From an uncultured Alphaproteobacteria bacterium (GTDB lineage Bacteria; Pseudomonadota; Alphaproteobacteria; RF32; CAG-239), in the NCBI GenBank assembly GCA_947588655.1, contig CANPYS010000017.1, positions 1 through 38,895 on the forward strand: DNA of 38,895 nucleotides. Reading direction: 5' to 3'. The notes beneath the pieces were generated by a model that saw only the letters and a list, made by a program, of their open reading frames with translations, was not told where the DNA came from and did not search any database. This document shows positions 7,080-35,503 of this stretch, one piece after another. Both the position numbers and the translations under genes were made by a program. The first letter of the stretch is position 1. Each line of letters opens with the position of its first letter.

Positions 7080-7156
7080 ATTTTTATAAAAAATGACTTG
7101 ATTTCTTTTTTAAATTTCACTAATCTGTTTATGTGAATTTTAAGCAAGGAGCAAAT

Positions 7157-7498
7157 ATGGTTAAAAGAAAAGTCCTAGAAAGATCAACACCTAGTGCTGT
7201 AGAGAAAACGATAAAAGGCTTGGGCGAAAATTTAAGAACAGCTCGTTTACGTCGCAAGCTGACAATAAAAGAAGTTGCTGATAAAATTGGTGTCGGTATT
7301 CGTGTGGTAAGTGATGCTGAGCACGGTAAACCAACAACTTCCATTAAAGTTTATATGGCTCTTTTATGGGTTTACGATTTGCTAGAATCGGCAGTAGATT
7401 TAGCAAACCCGCTAAAAGATGAAATTGGCTTGCGCTTATTCAGTCTAAAAGATCCTAAACGCAGTCGAAATAAGGAGACAATAGACAATGACTTCTAA
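7157..7498 (+). CDS. hipB: HipB-like antitoxin, XRE-type HTH regulator
   Basis: 113 aa from the ATG at 7157, which has AAGGAG five bases upstream; the track's GTG at 7133 has no such site. An XRE helix-turn-helix spans about residues 20-75 (LGENLRTARLRRKLTIKEVA ... VVSDAEHGKPTTSIKVYMAL). In HipBA systems this protein binds the operators and neutralises the HipA kinase. The downstream hipA start overlaps its end by 11 bases. It is cargo inserted between the repeat protein and the tape measure, and more AT-rich than its phage neighbours. Confidence 0.88.
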   Translation: MVKRKVLERSTPSAVEKTIKGLGENLRTARLRRKLTIKEVADKIGVGIRVVSDAEHGKPTTSIKVYMALLWVYDLLESAVDLANPLKDEIGLRLFSLKDPKRSRNKETIDNDF

Positions 7499-8759
7499 AA
7501 AGCAAGAATGCTTTGTATATATGACATTGCCCGGTCAAACCGACCAAATAACAGCGGGTAAATATGTTTTAGAAAAGACAGAACAAGGGATTGATGTTGG
7601 GCATTTTGTTTATGGCAGGTCTTACTTAAGTCGTGCTGATGCAGTTGAGATTGATCCTATAGAATTAAAACTAAAAAATAAAGTATTTAATACAGTTACT
7701 ATGAAGGGTGTCTTTGGGGCATTACGTGATGCTTCTCCTGACTATTGGGGCCGTAGAATCATTGAGCATAATTTAAAAGTTGCTCAGGCAGATGAAATGA
7801 CTTATTTACTTCAGTCGGCAGATGACCGTATAGGAGCTTTAGGGTTTGGACTTAATCAAACACCGCCTGCTCCAAATAGAGTATTTAATCAAAAAATACA
7901 GCTTGATAGATTGCAAAAAGAAGCAGAATTATTAATAAATGAGGAAGTAAAGCCTGAAAATCCTGTTACGGCACAAGTACAAGAACTTTTGCTCATTGGA
8001 ACCTCTATGGGGGGAGCTCGTCCAAAGGCAGTTATTGAAGATGATAATAAGCTGTGGGTGGCGAAATTCAACCGTTCAGATGATAAATGGAACAACGCAT
8101 TAGTTGAATATGCTATGCTGAAACTTGCAGAAAAATGCGGAATAGAAACAGCTTTAAGCAAGGTTGTTTCTGTTGCGGGAAAAGATGTCTTACTTGTCAA
8201 GCGTTTTGATAGAGAAAAAGCTTTAGATGGATATCTGAGATATCGGATGATAAGTTCATTAACAGTTTTGCAAGCCGGTGATGATTATACTCAGCGAGAA
8301 AAATGGTCTTATATTCGATTAGCAGAAGAGTTAAGGCGCATATCAAAACAAGCAAAACGTGATGCGGAACAGTTGTTCAGACGGATGGTATTTAATGCGC
8401 TTATTTCTAATACAGATGATCATCCGCGTAATCATGCTTTTATTGCACAGGATAAAAATTGGCAACTCTCACCTGCATATGACTTAACACCAAACCCGTT
8501 GGTGAGCATAGAACAACGTGATTTAGCAATGATTTGCGGTCGTATGGGACGTTTTGCTAATAAAGATAATTTGTTGTCAGAAGCAGATAAGTTCTTACTG
8601 AATCAAGATCAGGCAAAAAAAATTATTGATGATATCTATAAAATTGTAAAAAACGAATGGTATGCCATAGCAAGGTATGCAGGAGTAACCGAAACAGATT
8701 GTGAAAAAATTAAATCTTCTTTTGTTTATGAAGGATTTAATTATAATCAAAAATCTTAA
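7488..8759 (+). CDS. hipA: HipA-family Ser/Thr kinase toxin
   Basis: 423 aa, typical HipA length. An N-terminal beta domain spans about residues 10-110. GTSMGGARPK (171-180) is the Gly-rich ATP-binding loop. The catalytic loop SNTDDHPRN holds Asp310, and LSPAYDL holds the metal-binding Asp332. E. coli HipA phosphorylates glutamyl-tRNA synthetase and causes growth arrest; the target here is unknown. It is translationally coupled to hipB and followed by a terminator. In a prophage it may stabilise the element or block superinfecting phages (inference). Confidence 0.92.
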   Translation: MTSKKQECFVYMTLPGQTDQITAGKYVLEKTEQGIDVGHFVYGRSYLSRADAVEIDPIELKLKNKVFNTVTMKGVFGALRDASPDYWGRRIIEHNLKVAQADEMTYLLQSADDRIGALGFGLNQTPPAPNRVFNQKIQLDRLQKEAELLINEEVKPENPVTAQVQELLLIGTSMGGARPKAVIEDDNKLWVAKFNRSDDKWNNALVEYAMLKLAEKCGIETALSKVVSVAGKDVLLVKRFDREKALDGYLRYRMISSLTVLQAGDDYTQREKWSYIRLAEELRRISKQAKRDAEQLFRRMVFNALISNTDDHPRNHAFIAQDKNWQLSPAYDLTPNPLVSIEQRDLAMICGRMGRFANKDNLLSEADKFLLNQDQAKKIIDDIYKIVKNEWYAIARYAGVTETDCEKIKSSFVYEGFNYNQKS

Positions 8760-29339: not shown

Positions 29340-29555
29340 ATGAAGATACGAGATTCAAAAAGTTTTGGCAAAGCCATAAAAGAATATAGAAAAAAACAAG
29401 GATTAACACAAATTCAGTTATCTGCAGTAGCGAATGTCAGTCCGCGATTTATAGGTGAGCTGGAAAGAGGAAAGCCTACGATAGAATTGGAAAAAGCACT
29501 GTATGTGGCATGGATTTTAGGGCTAAATTTAAGCGTTGCAGATATTGAGGAGTAA
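29340..29555 (+). CDS. hipB: HipB-like antitoxin, compact XRE regulator (second system)
   Basis: 71 aa, almost entirely an XRE HTH: FGKAIKEYRKKQGLTQIQLS, then SPRFIGELERGKPTIELEKA. GAGG precedes the ATG. The third TTACC operator lies directly before it, and hipA follows after 3 bases. It should bind the operators and inhibit the kinase. It is unrelated in length and operator type to the hipB inside the phage late genes. Confidence 0.87.
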   Translation: MKIRDSKSFGKAIKEYRKKQGLTQIQLSAVANVSPRFIGELERGKPTIELEKALYVAWILGLNLSVADIEE

Positions 29556-29558
29556 TTC

Positions 29559-30797
29559 ATGGTAAGAAGATTGAATGTATATTTATATGGTCAAAAAGCA
29601 GGAATTTTATCCGAAGATTCATTAGGTCGTCTAGAATTTCAGTACGAAGATGATGCTCCCCCTTTGTCTGTCAGAATGCCTGTGCGTAAAACGATATATG
29701 AACCGATTTATGCAGAACCATTTTTTGATAATTTGACTCCTGAGGGAGATGCTTTAAGCCTTATTTCTAAAAATTTTCACATCTCTGAAGAAAATACCTT
29801 TTCTATATTAAATCAAATAGGCGGTGATTGTGCAGGAGCTGTTTCTTTATATTCAGATGAGCCAAAAATTTATATAGATACCCCATTGAAAGAGATTGAT
29901 CATGTACTGCTTTCAAAAATTATAGATAATTTACCGACAAATCCTTTATTAACAGGCATGGAAAATGCACCGCGTTTATCTCTGGCCGGAGCGCAATCGA
30001 AATTTGCTGTTTATAAAGCAGGTGATGGCAAATATTACCGTTCTGATGATGAACATCCAACAACCCATATTATCAAAATTACCAATAAGCATTTTAATGG
30101 TCTTCTTGAAAATGAGCTGTTTTGTATGACATTGGCAAAAAAATTCTTTAATGACGCAATAAATGTAGAACTGAAAATTGTTGATGGAAGAAAATATCTG
30201 GAAATTGATCGTTATGATCGAAAATCATTGAACGGGAAGATTGAGCGTATTCATCAAGAAGATTTTTGCCAAGTGTTAGGATATTTGAGTCGTAAAAAAT
30301 ATCAATCTGACGGCGGGCCGAAATTGCCGCAAATATATAGTGCTATCACACAGTACTCTAGTCAAAAAGCAACAGACGGATATAAATTTATAAAGCTTCT
30401 GATTTTTAATTATCTGGTCGGTAATACAGATGCTCATGCTAAAAATTTTTCTTTTATACATTTGGATAAAAATAATAAGGTCATTTTATCTCCGGCGTAT
30501 GATTTGGTATCCGTTGATGTGTATCCTAGAAAAATTGTAAGTCATGATATTGCAATGACTATAAATGGTAAAGGCACTTATGATTCTCTTCATAAAAAGG
30601 ATTGGATAGCTCTTTTTACACAATTGCACCTGAATGCTACAAGCATGATGAAAGAAATGAAAAGAACTTTTTTAAATATTATAGAAGACAGTCATGTTTT
30701 GGCCGATCAACTTAATAAAAACGAGCTTACTTCATCTGATATTTATGAAAAAATACTGAAAAATATTGAAAAAAGATATAATACACTATTTGAATGA
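29559..30797 (+). CDS. hipA: HipA-family Ser/Thr kinase toxin (second system)
   Basis: 412 aa. The N-terminal domain has FFDNLTPEGD (55-64), a HipA hallmark. SLAGAQSKFAV (141-151) is the flexible ATP loop, with the Ser usually autophosphorylated in E. coli HipA. The catalytic loop GNTDAHAKNFS has Asp291, and LSPAYDL holds the metal Asp. All catalytic residues are present, so it should be an active kinase. It is more similar in layout to classical E. coli HipA than the phage copy. It could stabilise the defence block or act as a phage-triggered arrest system (inference). Confidence 0.93.
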   Translation: MVRRLNVYLYGQKAGILSEDSLGRLEFQYEDDAPPLSVRMPVRKTIYEPIYAEPFFDNLTPEGDALSLISKNFHISEENTFSILNQIGGDCAGAVSLYSDEPKIYIDTPLKEIDHVLLSKIIDNLPTNPLLTGMENAPRLSLAGAQSKFAVYKAGDGKYYRSDDEHPTTHIIKITNKHFNGLLENELFCMTLAKKFFNDAINVELKIVDGRKYLEIDRYDRKSLNGKIERIHQEDFCQVLGYLSRKKYQSDGGPKLPQIYSAITQYSSQKATDGYKFIKLLIFNYLVGNTDAHAKNFSFIHLDKNNKVILSPAYDLVSVDVYPRKIVSHDIAMTINGKGTYDSLHKKDWIALFTQLHLNATSMMKEMKRTFLNIIEDSHVLADQLNKNELTSSDIYEKILKNIEKRYNTLFE

Positions 30798-31252: not shown

Positions 31253-31308
31253 GACCGAAGCGTAGTTACGCCGCAGACGATTTGTCGGCGGCAGCGTTAC
31301 GGAGCAAG
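31253..31308 (-). repeat. Hairpin-spacer repeat, copy 3 (inverted)
   Basis: On the minus strand it reads CTTGCTCCGTAAC, a GCCGC/GCGGC hairpin, then TAACTACGCTTCGGTCA. This matches the spacer elements of the arrays at 31417-31702 and 38427-38585 around another stem. Confidence 0.55.
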
Positions 31309-31315
31309 AGTGTAT

Positions 31316-31339
31316 GTTCAAGTCCAGTCAATCCGACCA
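31316..31339 (+). other. tRNA 3'-end fragment (T-loop to CCA), Pro-type acceptor
   Basis: TTCAAGT (54-60), CCAGT (61-65), CAATCCG (66-72), A73 and CCA fit tRNA geometry exactly. G72 with A73 is typical of bacterial tRNA-Pro. The bases upstream do not complete the T-stem, so this is a fragment, as left by integration into a tRNA 3' end. A possible partner half lies inverted near 31123. Confidence 0.45.
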
Positions 31340-31378
31340 AAAGTCGTATAACGGCACATCTAAAGGCACTTTGGTGGG
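31335..31378. repeat. Left arm of an imperfect inverted-repeat pair
   Basis: CCAAAAGTCG and TAAAGGCACTTT match, in reverse complement and with equal spacing, the arm at 31726-31770. About 34 of 44 positions agree. The arms enclose the hairpin array. Confidence 0.65.
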
Positions 31379-31416
31379 TCTCGGAAAATTTATGTACCTC
31401 TTTGGTCTTACTTATA

Positions 31417-31702
31417 AGGGTTGCCAGAAATGGCAACCCTAACTCGTTTCGGTCTTGCTCGTAAGTTTTGCGTTAAGCGCAAAACTAACTTGCTTCGGTC
31501 ACTGCTCTGTAACGCTTGCTTTGGCGCTTATCAGCGCCTTGCAAGCTAACACTCGCGTTATATCGCCTAAAAAACAACAACTTTTGTTGTTTTTATAGGC
31601 TCTACTTGCTTTGTAAAACCTGCCACGGTCGCTATTGCTCCCTTGCAGTTTTAACAAAGCTACGTCGCTTGTGGTAAAAACAACCCGCTGGGGTTGTTTT
31701 TA
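31417..31702 (+). repeat. Array of perfect hairpins separated by conserved spacers (copy 1)
   Basis: Consecutive stem-loops are AGGGTTGCCA/TGGCAACCCT, AGTTTTGCG/CGCAAAACT, GCTTGC..GGCGC/GCGCC..GCAAGC, GCCTA-A/T-rich arms/TAGGC, GCTTTGT/ACAAAGC and TAAAAACAACCC/GGGTTGTTTTTA. The spacers contain CTTGCTCGTA, TTGCTTCGGTCAC, GCTCTGTAAC and CTCGCGTTAT. The spacers recur almost unchanged at 38427-38585 (inverted), while some stems are replaced. Confidence 0.85.
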
Positions 31703-31725
31703 TCCTCGCGCACTAAAAATTTCCT

Positions 31726-31770
31726 CACCCTTAAAGTGCCTTTATTTGTACCATTCTCCGACTTTTGGGC
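31726..31770. repeat. Right arm of the imperfect inverted-repeat pair
   Basis: AAAGTGCCTTTA and CGACTTTTGG mirror the left arm at 31335-31378. The enclosed interval is about 435 bp. Confidence 0.65.
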
Positions 31771-31911
31771 CCCTAAATATTTAAGCAGAGGGACTTTCGG
31801 CGTATTTGCGTAGGTATTTCATATTTTGTCTCTTGGGTGGCTTTTTTTAGTTGACTTCATTATTGCTCATTATTAAAATTAAACGTATTGAAATCTGCAG
31901 AAAGGGACTCT

Positions 31912-32562
31912 ATGAAAAGACTATATTCAATTGAGTGGCTTAGAATTTGGTTTACTGCTTTAATTATTCTTTGTCATACTGCATATTATAACTTAATAAC
32001 GAATTTTTTTCATGGTCATAGTGTGTTAAGTGGTTCAACTTATACCGATGTATTTTTTCTAATAAGCGGATTTTTTATCTTTATATCATTGCAGAATGCA
32101 AAGGATGAGTCAATTATTCAAGTAATTAAGCATAGATGTTTACGTCTTTTACCCGCTTTGTGGCTTTATAAAATATTATGTGTTATTTTATTGTCGTATA
32201 AATTTAAATATTTACCAACAGATTTGATAATGTTTAATAAAAATGTTGGGATTGATGTTCAGACAAATACACATATTATTTGGTTTGTTGATGTTTTATT
32301 TTGGGTTAATATTTTTTATATTACACTTTATTTTTCTTGTAAAAATAAAATTCATTTTTTCTTTCTAACAACTTTAATAATGTATTTTTCTTTAGTTATC
32401 TTATTTAGCCACGATAATATCAATTTTCATTTTCAAATGGCAACAATTTATTTAGATGGAGGTGTTCTAAGAGGGTTGGCTTTTGTTGGTTTAGGGATTA
32501 TAGTAGCTTCATTGCCCAAATGCCCTACCTTGTCTTCCCCCCCCCCTCACACACACAACTAA
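31912..32562 (+). CDS. Acyltransferase family 3 membrane protein, N-terminal part (frame ends at C10 tract)
   Basis: 216 aa from the ATG at 31912, with AAAGGGA upstream. YSIEWLRIWFTALIILCHT is the start of acyltransferase-3 proteins, with the catalytic-type His in the first membrane segment. DVFFLISGFFIFISL is the family's second signature. Several further membrane helices follow. After GLGIIVASLP the frame enters a C10-T-(CA)5 tract and stops. The rest of the protein continues in another frame. One added C, or loss of one CA, joins both parts into about 350 aa, the normal family length. Such enzymes O-acetylate surface sugars. Confidence 0.85.
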   Translation: MKRLYSIEWLRIWFTALIILCHTAYYNLITNFFHGHSVLSGSTYTDVFFLISGFFIFISLQNAKDESIIQVIKHRCLRLLPALWLYKILCVILLSYKFKYLPTDLIMFNKNVGIDVQTNTHIIWFVDVLFWVNIFYITLYFSCKNKIHFFFLTTLIMYFSLVILFSHDNINFHFQMATIYLDGGVLRGLAFVGLGIIVASLPKCPTLSSPPPHTHN

Positions 32563-32963
32563 AAAAAGATACGTATAAAAAAGTTACAAGTATAGCTATT
32601 TTGATCTTAGAGATCTTTATAACTTTTATGGTCTTTTTTTATCCGATGCTGACTGATTTGAATAAAGGAAAAGCTTTAAATTATATTTTATGGTCTGCCT
32701 TATTCTTATATTTGATGAGATATGAATATGGTGCTTTTTCTAAAATCTTTAATTCTCAAAATAAACTGTCTTTTTTGTCGGAAATATGTTATGAAACGTA
32801 CATCTTTCAGTTTTTTGCGATAACAGTTATTGAAAAATATTTTTCTTTTCTTCCGATAATTTTTCAAATTTTGTTCATTTTGATTTTGTCTTTTGTGATT
32901 GGAAAAATTGTACATGAAATAGTCAAAGTTATTTTTAAAATGCTGATATCTAAAAAAGTTTGA
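32520..32963 (+). CDS. Acyltransferase family 3, C-terminal part in shifted frame
   Basis: The frame from the tract onward encodes three or four more hydrophobic helices (VTSIAILILEIFITFMVFFY, LNYILWSALFLYLM, FFAITVIEKYFSFLPIIF, ILSFVIGKIVHEIV). These complete the membrane fold of the preceding part. The ATG at 32520 lies inside the upstream frame and has no ribosome site, so separate translation is unlikely. It should be expressed only when the tract is in frame. The locus ends at a terminator shared with the convergent gene. Confidence 0.75.
   Translation: MPYLVFPPPSHTQLKKDTYKKVTSIAILILEIFITFMVFFYPMLTDLNKGKALNYILWSALFLYLMRYEYGAFSKIFNSQNKLSFLSEICYETYIFQFFAITVIEKYFSFLPIIFQILFILILSFVIGKIVHEIVKVIFKMLISKKV
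32537..32557 (+). repeat. C10-T-(CA)5 simple repeat, likely phase-variation switch
   Basis: Ten Cs, one T and five CA units lie within the acyltransferase reading frame. Change by one C or one CA shifts the frame between off (as here) and on. Confidence 0.75.
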
Positions 32964-32985
32964 AATTTTAAGTTTTCTAACAAAT

Positions 32986-33013
32986 AAAAAAGCCACCTAA
33001 AGGTGGCTTTTTT
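32986..33013. terminator. Bidirectional terminator
   Basis: AAAAAAGCCACC / GGTGGCTTTTTT with loop TAAA, between the acyltransferase and the convergent minus-strand gene. It resembles the hairpin at 31063. Confidence 0.9.
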
Positions 33014-33494
33014 ATAAGAGGCCTTTGGCATGAGCCAAAGATTTTGCTACAGCCCAAAATCCGTGAAGTTTTTCGTAAGATTTAATTAAGGCTGTGTTTC
33101 CAGATTCCACAAGCGCTATTTGCGCGGTTTCCTCCAAGTTACGCTTTGAAATGTAAAATTGAATCAATTTTACATTTTTTTGATGAATGAGCGCAACTTC
33201 TGCTTCAGGACTTAAAGCATTCACGTCAATGTAAGCCTTGATGATTTCGCTTTCGGGGCGTTTTATGAGCCTTGTTTCCGCTTTTGGCCAAAGTTTGTGA
33301 CGCAAAACATAGTCCATAAGCAAATTTGGGGCTGCAATGTCAATGAAAAACATTTCATTCAAAGGACGAAATGCGTTGTCCTTGTAGTAAGTTTTCATTT
33401 CAACCTTTGAGCCGGAATTAATCAAGTCGCGCTCTTGCTTAAAAGGTAAATTTTTTTCCATAATAACTAATTTAATAATATTTTGTGCAAACAT
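33012..33494 (-). CDS. Hypothetical protein with short helical repeats
   Basis: 160 aa from the ATG at 33494 (MFAQNIIKLV); the track's start six codons earlier is a TTG. The second half carries repeats of about 24-28 residues of the kind AEVALIHQKNVKLIQFYISK and AQIALVESGNTALIKSYEKL, predicted helix pairs. There is no signal peptide or membrane segment. I do not recognise a named family. It probably makes protein contacts. It is divergent from the glycosyltransferase gene and convergent with the acyltransferase. Confidence 0.75.
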   Translation of the reverse strand: MFAQNIIKLVIMEKNLPFKQERDLINSGSKVEMKTYYKDNAFRPLNEMFFIDIAAPNLLMDYVLRHKLWPKAETRLIKRPESEIIKAYIDVNALSPEAEVALIHQKNVKLIQFYISKRNLEETAQIALVESGNTALIKSYEKLHGFWAVAKSLAHAKGLL

Positions 33495-33616
33495 TTTATA
33501 TCTTTCTTTCAAAATGTCAAGAACACATTAAAAATTTGTGTGTGATCTCATAATTGCATTGCAAATGTTTTTTTAGTTGTTATGCTACTAATGTGTTTTA
33601 TTTTGAAAGATTTTTT

Positions 33617-35503
33617 ATGCCTACGGTTTCGGTTATTGTTCCGGTTTATAAAGTTGAAAAGTATTTGCCTAGATGCTTGGAAAGCGTTTTGGTACAAACT
33701 TTTACTGATTTTGAGCTGATTTGTATTAACGATGGTTCGCCTGATTCTTGCTTGCAAATATTAGAAAGTTATGCTCAAAGAGATAAGCGTATTAAGGTCT
33801 TTTCGCAAGAAAATCAAGGACTCTCCATGGCCAGAAACAACGGTCTAAAACAAGCTTCCGGTCAGTATATTTATTTTTTGGATTCTGATGATTATATTCA
33901 TCCGCAGTGTTTGGAAATCGCTATTTATTTTGCAAAACAGTATCAGGCGGATTTAATTAGCTTTGACTTTGTTAAAGGTTCAAATGACAAAATTTTGCAT
34001 AATCAATATCAATTGGATAAAATTCCTTTTAAAATAACAGATTCTCCTGTTTTTCTTGGAACAAGCAAAAAAACTTGGCGGATAGCTTTTAATTCTTGGA
34101 GCAAGCTTTTCAAACGAGAAATTCTTGATGGAATAGATTTTATTGGAGGCATTCATTTTGAAGATTATCCTCATACGCTTGCTGTCTTGTCAAAAAAGCC
34201 TTTAACCGTTGTTCTTAAAGCCTCGTTGTATTTTTATACTTTGAATGAAAATTCCATTTCGCATCAAAAAGTAAATCCGTCTCAGATTCGTGATTATCAT
34301 ATTGGTGTTCGTTCTGTTTTTGAAAAGTATGCTTCTCCTCAACTCGTTAGGGAGCGTATTTTTTTGAGGAAACACTTTTTGTGGCGAATTTTAAAGCATC
34401 AGTTTAAACTTTGTCAGTGGGCAGATTCTGAAAATAGGTTGCAGATGTTTACACAGTTTGCAACGGAATTAAGAGATTTAGTCGCGCAAAATTTGCTTTC
34501 ATGGCACAATCAGCATCTTATAACATATTGGGCTTATCGGAAAATTATGAAAGATTTCCCTCAAAATGCAACAGATAGCCCCAAAGCAAAGCCTTTCCGT
34601 GTGGCGATTTTTGCTTCTTATGATTCGGAAGGTAAAATACATGATTATGTGTTGAATTATATTCAAAAATTAAAGCAGGTCTGTCAAAAAATTGTTTTTG
34701 TAGCAGATAATGAGGCTGTTGATCTTGAACAGAAAAAACTTGACGGTTTAGTAGAATTTAAGCAATTTCATCGTCATGGAGAATATGATTTTGGTAGTTA
34801 TAAAATTGGTTACGAGTGGCTTTTGAAACAAGAGTGGGTTAATCAGGTTGATGAGCTTGTTATCTGTAACGATTCTTGTTTTACAGTTGGCTCAATTAAA
34901 CCTTTATTTGATATGATGTCTTTTAGCAGGTGCGATTTTTGGGGCATGACACTTGCGAATACTAGAAAGCCACATTTGCAATCTTTTTTCTTGGTTTTTA
35001 AAAAAAATGTTTTTCATTCAGTAGAGTTTAAAGATTTTATAAAATCAATTAAGTCTCAAAAAAGAGTCTTAGATGTTATTCTTAACTATGAAATCCCTTT
35101 GAAAGCTCTGTTGGAAAAAGCAGGCTTTAGAGGAACAGGTTATATTCAGAATTTAAAATCGCCCCATCAACGACCTTTAACGACACTGAGCAAAGGTATG
35201 CCTCTTGTAAAGAAAAAATGCTTTTTAAAGCCAAAGATTTCATTAGAAGAAACTTCTTTGGAGGGGGTCGGGAGATTGTTATGGAAAATCAAAAAAATTT
35301 CAAGAACAGATTATGATTCTATATTATCTTTTCTGAAGGAATCGCCTTTTTGGTTAACTTTACGTATTTTTTGCTGCTTTTATTTCATTAAAATTAGACG
35401 CTTTTTTTATTTTAGGAAAATGAAAGAAAATGGCGATATTGTATTTAAGATTTTCAAAATTCCGGTTTATCGTTTGAAAATAAAGCAAAAAAAAGGAATT
35501 TAA
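33617..35503 (+). CDS. Glycosyltransferase family 2 fused to rhamnan synthesis F (RgpF) domain
   Basis: 628 aa from the ATG at 33617 (MPTVSVIVPVY); the track's start adds 21 residues that do not fit the family. The GT-A domain spans about 4-250, with VSVIVPVYKVEKYLPRCLES, NDGSPDS and the metal-binding DSDD in YFLDSDDYI. The RgpF domain spans about 325-545 (FRVAIFASYDSEGKIHDYVL ... DELVICNDSCFTVGSIKPLF ... CDFWGM). The C-terminal tail is KIFKIPVYRLKIK. The enzyme probably extends a rhamnose-containing or similar surface polysaccharide. The ogt start overlaps its stop. Confidence 0.9.
   Translation: MPTVSVIVPVYKVEKYLPRCLESVLVQTFTDFELICINDGSPDSCLQILESYAQRDKRIKVFSQENQGLSMARNNGLKQASGQYIYFLDSDDYIHPQCLEIAIYFAKQYQADLISFDFVKGSNDKILHNQYQLDKIPFKITDSPVFLGTSKKTWRIAFNSWSKLFKREILDGIDFIGGIHFEDYPHTLAVLSKKPLTVVLKASLYFYTLNENSISHQKVNPSQIRDYHIGVRSVFEKYASPQLVRERIFLRKHFLWRILKHQFKLCQWADSENRLQMFTQFATELRDLVAQNLLSWHNQHLITYWAYRKIMKDFPQNATDSPKAKPFRVAIFASYDSEGKIHDYVLNYIQKLKQVCQKIVFVADNEAVDLEQKKLDGLVEFKQFHRHGEYDFGSYKIGYEWLLKQEWVNQVDELVICNDSCFTVGSIKPLFDMMSFSRCDFWGMTLANTRKPHLQSFFLVFKKNVFHSVEFKDFIKSIKSQKRVLDVILNYEIPLKALLEKAGFRGTGYIQNLKSPHQRPLTTLSKGMPLVKKKCFLKPKISLEETSLEGVGRLLWKIKKISRTDYDSILSFLKESPFWLTLRIFCCFYFIKIRRFFYFRKMKENGDIVFKIFKIPVYRLKIKQKKGI

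Follow-up and report, generated by a model that had tools for sequence, protein, structure and literature searches.

The window, that is, the whole 38,895-nucleotide stretch of DNA analyzed here, is contig 17 of an assembly of 1,552,048 bases in 55 contigs from an uncultured alphaproteobacterium. On its forward strand, a gene for an acyltransferase-3 (AT3) protein starts with the ATG at 31912, preceded by a Shine-Dalgarno-like AAAGGGA (31901..31907, +) that we identified by direct reading of the sequence. A promoter-like site, TTGACT-17-TAAAAT, lies further 5' (31851..31879, +). It was recovered by a consensus scan that returned 13 such sites against 7.4 expected in shuffles, so that the scan is not evidence of function and the site is a weak indication of a promoter. 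The reading frame from the ATG encodes 216 aa as assembled, the N-terminal part of the protein (31912..32562, +), and closes with a premature stop at 32560-32562. Just 5' of this stop lies a tract of ten C residues (C10; 32537..32546, +), which a single T at 32547 separates from an adjoining (CA)5 dinucleotide repeat (32548..32557, +). The C-terminal part of the protein is found in another frame (32547..32963, +) and runs to its natural stop. It is followed by a hairpin with a T-run, built on a perfect 15-nt inverted repeat (32984..33015, +), which was missed by the consensus scan and is likely the terminator of the acyltransferase gene.

The two parts were searched apart against the Acyltransferase-3 profile (PF01757), and both scored above the curated cut-off of 31 bits, with the N-terminal part covering profile positions 2-200 (61 bits, E 1.2e-16) and the C-terminal part positions 207-320 (37 bits, E 2.4e-9). 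Reading through the tract yielded a match to positions 2-320 of 326 (92.5 bits, E 3.6e-26). No further stop or frameshift was found in either half. The original prediction had placed a frame change at the C10-T-(CA)5 tract of an otherwise intact acyltransferase gene, and had argued that one added C or one lost CA would restore about 350 aa. The coordinates proved exact, the halves complementary within PF01757, the gene free of other lesions and the frame arithmetic correct: one in three tract phases gives an AT3 protein of about 350 aa.

The family is characterized by an R-X10-H motif in TMH1 and an RXXR motif at TMH3 (PMC9833829). The former is present in the predicted protein (R11, H22) and invariant in the 12 sequences aligned, and the latter reads RCLR. 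As a caveat, nearly all of the compared homologs have a histidine at the position of Gln299. Judged by its sequence, the gene belongs to the Acyltransferase-3 family (PF01757). In the alignment, the peptide encoded by the tract is an insertion shortly C-terminal to an invariant glycine, with no counterpart in 11 AT3 homologs. An AlphaFold2 model consisting mostly of long helices (mean pLDDT 74, pTM 0.77) places this peptide in a loop connecting two of the long helices; an earlier model built on three sequences was too poor to be used (pLDDT 48). Foldseek analysis of the model matched no solved structure at E <= 0.001, and searching PDB sequences with a profile likewise gave no relative. Since no solved relative was matched, family membership is argued here without recourse to the fold. 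Additionally, neither GTDB nor viral contigs yielded a close relative of the acyltransferase, and phage records yielded none either.

Several other features surround the gene. A dispersed repeat (31345-31720), in which parts of roughly 115-155 bases are 75-95% identical, often occurs at contig ends; among the matches listed to positions 31300-35503, 69 came from this genome and 62 from a congener, nearly all of them to the repeat. A gene pair for an HTH regulator and a HipA-like kinase, named from sequence motifs, is located at 29340-29555 and 29559-30797, and a second similar pair (7133-7498 and 7488-8759) lies inside a prophage region. A tRNA attachment site for this prophage was sought, and there is no tRNA within the window. 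The C10 tract is the only run of C or G longer than six in the window.

We then surveyed the whole genome for such runs. A pattern search for C or G runs of at least 8 preceded by a non-C base found 57, and one additional run sits at a contig end. The tract loci thereby hold 58 runs of 8 or more (7 of length 8, 32 of length 9, 16 of length 10, 2 of length 11, and 1 of length 12). Because two loci are represented twice, these correspond to about 56 distinct tracts with lengths of 8-12. Shorter runs in the same tract-bearing stretches numbered 379 (length 4), 39 (length 5), 3 (length 6), and 0 (length 7). A background sample of 400 kb, which consisted of contigs without tracts and was thus not random, contained 825 runs of length 4, 77 of length 5, 3 of length 6, and none longer. 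The distribution is bimodal: the long tracts form a class of their own, set off by a gap beneath it, and are not the upper tail of the shorter runs.

Counting only tracts of at least 9, this genome has 51 and the next-highest of the 152 genomes compared within its family has 14; the one congener compared has 11, and most family genomes have 0-3. Within the genome, eighteen tracts are concentrated in contig 4 (33-65 kb), where roughly half of the cluster's genes carry one, and a stretch of contig 22 (17-24 kb) is also tract-rich. As a separate observation, we counted 14 C9+ tracts in genome G104 of the same family and 15-32 in genomes from four other families of the class (G050, G052, G037, and G041). 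These raised counts possibly represent independent phasomes or merely higher G+C.

According to Pfam, the tracts lie mainly in genes predicted to act on surface glycans. These genes encode glycosyltransferases (GT2, GT4, GT6, GT10, and GT11) and WbsX, AlgX-like and hexapeptide acetyltransferases (including the PglD type), two polysaccharide pyruvyltransferases, NAD-dependent epimerases, a DegT aminotransferase, and an IspD-like cytidylyltransferase. The tract genes of the contig 4 cluster include a ketoacyl synthase III, a transketolase-half, a methyltransferase, a short-chain dehydrogenase, and an FkbH-like gene. Further tract genes encode a large EGF/BigA-type surface protein and three DNA methyltransferases (EcoRI-type, N6/N4, and C5). 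As for the AT3 gene, the halves of the GT2, epimerase, and N6_N4_Mtase tract genes match complementary parts of one family. The original prediction had also pointed to the neighboring prophage and defense genes as a meaningful context for the acyltransferase. This link found no support: as most of the sibling tracts are in glycan genes at other places on the chromosome, the proximity to the prophage is probably incidental.

Among the 51 tracts in coding sequence, 39 have G on the coding strand, and the acyltransferase C10 belongs to the minority with C (12/51). For the 46 tracts with an open frame of at least 20 codons on both sides, 21 were in frame and 25 out of frame (16 and 9 in the two other phases). 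The tracts of the DNA methyltransferases (L065 at 2683 and 9514, L081 at 2758) are within the gene or abut it, and these genes are possible phasevarions, i.e., global methylation switches. In one case (L064, 2647-2656), a C10/G10 tract is located between TTGACA and a likely -10 element, 5' of an outer-membrane beta-barrel gene, a promoter-spacer position at which it could possibly act as a switch of promoter strength. A similar TTGACA adjoins a G tract at the end of contig 16 (L075).

Two loci are present in the assembly with two tract lengths each. Contig 22 at its end and contig 1 at its start share identical flanks (37 and 66 bases) around G12 and G10, respectively, and contigs 18 and 36, which overlap at their starts, are identical over 67 and 26 bases around G9 and G10. 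The genes concerned encode a GT11 fucosyltransferase-type protein and an NAD-dependent epimerase resembling GDP-fucose synthase, and each locus combines an in-frame with an out-of-frame length. We conclude from these two sibling tracts that the sequenced population was probably mixed for tract length, and PCR or sequencing stutter could contribute to the length differences. Further, six tracts are no more than 80 bases away from a contig end where 0.33 would be expected, as if the assembler had broken the contigs where lengths were mixed. These are not six independent events, because two pairs of ends represent the same locus each. Two more contigs also break off at tracts, and a search for their partner contigs found none.

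These observations bear on an alternative explanation, namely that the C10 length is an assembly or sequencing error and that the acyltransferase gene has a different, fixed tract length and is simply intact. Homopolymers are error-prone in sequencing and assembly, and the genome is a 55-contig assembly. Against an error, however, stand the absence of any G/C run longer than 6 from 400 kb of tract-free sequence, which makes the tract unusual at any length, the nearly even division of sibling tracts into in-frame and out-of-frame states, and the two lengths at two loci. We regard an error as improbable on these grounds. Long single-base runs can also be slippery for ribosomes and RNA polymerase, and recoding on C10 could in principle produce some full-length protein, with tract length tuning the output. 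The many siblings of varied length instead favor slippage at the level of DNA, and recoding appears to us the least probable of the alternatives considered in this study.

Comparison with the congener indicates how the tracts have evolved. Several genes of the congener have orthologous tracts at identical positions. At the contig 30 locus, both genomes have G9; by sequence reading, the gene is in frame in the congener and out of frame in the present genome. Two AlgX-like genes differ in tract length (G10 here vs. G9 in the congener for contig 4, and G10 vs. G11 for contig 22), and the contig 13 tract is G10 in both genomes. The tracts have thus outlasted the split between the species, with lengths that shift. 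A more distant homolog of the contig 30 gene (L127, 53% identity) has no tract, so that at least one tract arose within or near the genus.

The AT3 gene itself was not found in the congener genome; at the corresponding locus, the congener has a conserved glycosyltransferase (73%) with a different gene upstream. This accessory distribution, together with the low G+C content of the gene (26.5%), would suit a decaying pseudogene, in which a slippage mutation has become fixed in a horizontally acquired gene. Against such decay stands the lack of a second lesion in either AT3 half, and the break coincides with a class of tract seen in dozens of other genes that are intact but for their phase. We therefore consider a pseudogene very unlikely, slightly more so than an error of assembly or sequencing.

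Enzymes of the AT3 family acylate surface glycans with groups that they carry across the inner membrane. We propose that the C10 tract of the acyltransferase gene is a slipped-strand, phase-variable contingency switch, captured in the OFF state by the assembly and belonging to a genome-wide set of such switches, and we put the probability of this reading at about 0.85. DNA polymerase would slip during replication, so that C residues are gained or lost at C10. A whole AT3 acyltransferase with ten helices would arise in one of the three phases, and its expected activity is the O-acylation of a glycan at the cell surface. In either remaining phase, translation would end just 3' of the tract and leave a half-protein, presumably nonfunctional. 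The approximately 56 tracts together would let each cell show one combination of coat features, with many coat-building genes probably being switched on and off at random by the cells. Slippage at C10, its reversibility, the acyl group, its acceptor, and the benefit are all matters that we infer. A phase-variable surface acyltransferase, as the original prediction had it, is well supported by the set of about 56 tracts of the same class, two of which are present in the assembly with an in-frame and an out-of-frame length each.

Phasome surveys apply cut-offs of 7 or more for poly-G/C and six units for dinucleotides (PMC6321876). C10 exceeds the hypermutable threshold for poly-G/C, and it combines the further marks of a contingency locus, a position at which length toggles the frame of a gene with no other lesion and an excess over what composition would give. 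An additional proposal had been that C10 and (CA)5 act as two independent switches on the one gene. The frame arithmetic works, and the repeat, which abuts the C tract, is the only (AC/GT)5 in 616 kb examined. With five units, however, it remains below the dinucleotide cut-off of six (PMC6321876), no sibling tract has a partner dinucleotide, and there was no sign of CA variation. (CA)5 is probably no switch by itself, and we rate a double switch as low as pseudogene decay. Returning to slippage at C10 as the preferred reading, loss of mismatch repair was considered as a cause of the tracts and rejected with regard to MutS, as the mutS gene is intact in this genome; intact MutS may slow slippage.

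The proposed mechanism is of a known kind; the host and the number of tracts are unexpected. A search of the open-licence literature returned no poly-G/C phasome described for gut alphaproteobacteria. We lean, by a narrow preference, toward the broader view that a small-genome, probably commensal gut alphaproteobacterium has expanded, within one genus, a poly-G/C phasome on the scale of Campylobacter (about 56 tracts), which would combine combinatorial variation of the coat with several switchable DNA methyltransferases even though mutS is intact. The gut commensal lifestyle is judged probable from the record name of the congener and from the small genome. It is an open question if only pathogens have multi-locus phase variation (PMC11868660). 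If our view is true, such variation is not a pathogen trait, and any one assembled genome from bacteria of this kind gives a false picture of the coat genes that are functional. With about 56 tracts in a genome that is an outlier in its family, the question of pathogen restriction can be addressed with existing metagenome reads.

Phase-variable acetylation by AT3 proteins affects immunity or phage in the cases of Haemophilus influenzae oafA and Salmonella oafB (PMC9558356). As is proposed for the gene described here, H. influenzae oafA is a phase-variable AT3 gene acting on a surface glycan, switched by tetranucleotide repeats instead of a C mononucleotide tract (PMC9558356). Salmonella oafB likewise provides on/off O-acetylation of the surface by an AT3 protein, a function that is predicted here, and this acetylation blocks phage BTP1. 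The Salmonella gene differs in its epigenetic switching, in contrast to the slippage proposed here, and in a fused SGNH domain that is absent here (PMC9558356). By analogy to Salmonella OafB and Shigella Oac (PMC9558356), a role of the acyltransferase in modifying a phage receptor is plausible.

ON/OFF switching by replication slippage is also described for a gut commensal, Bifidobacterium breve; the switch there concerns two pilus clusters of a Gram-positive bacterium and not a genome-wide set (PMC9187656). Among alphaproteobacteria, Bartonella has about 50 in-gene mononucleotide repeats of 9 or more, some with ON/OFF length variation, but these are mostly poly-A (62-79%) and located in adhesin and secretion genes (PMC11466379), whereas the tracts reported here are poly-G/C and in glycan genes. 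The poly-G/C phasome of Campylobacter jejuni and its relatives has a similar length profile, with length 9 accounting for 53% of tracts there and 55% here, and length 10 for 26% and 28%, respectively (PhasomeIt; PMC6321876). Both sets have tracts mostly in open reading frames with G on the coding strand, prominent surface-structure genes, and a mix of in-frame and out-of-frame states (PMC6321876). C. jejuni strains have 18-39 phase-variable genes (PMC6321876) compared to about 56 tracts here, and unlike Campylobacter, the host described here is an alphaproteobacterium with an intact MutS.
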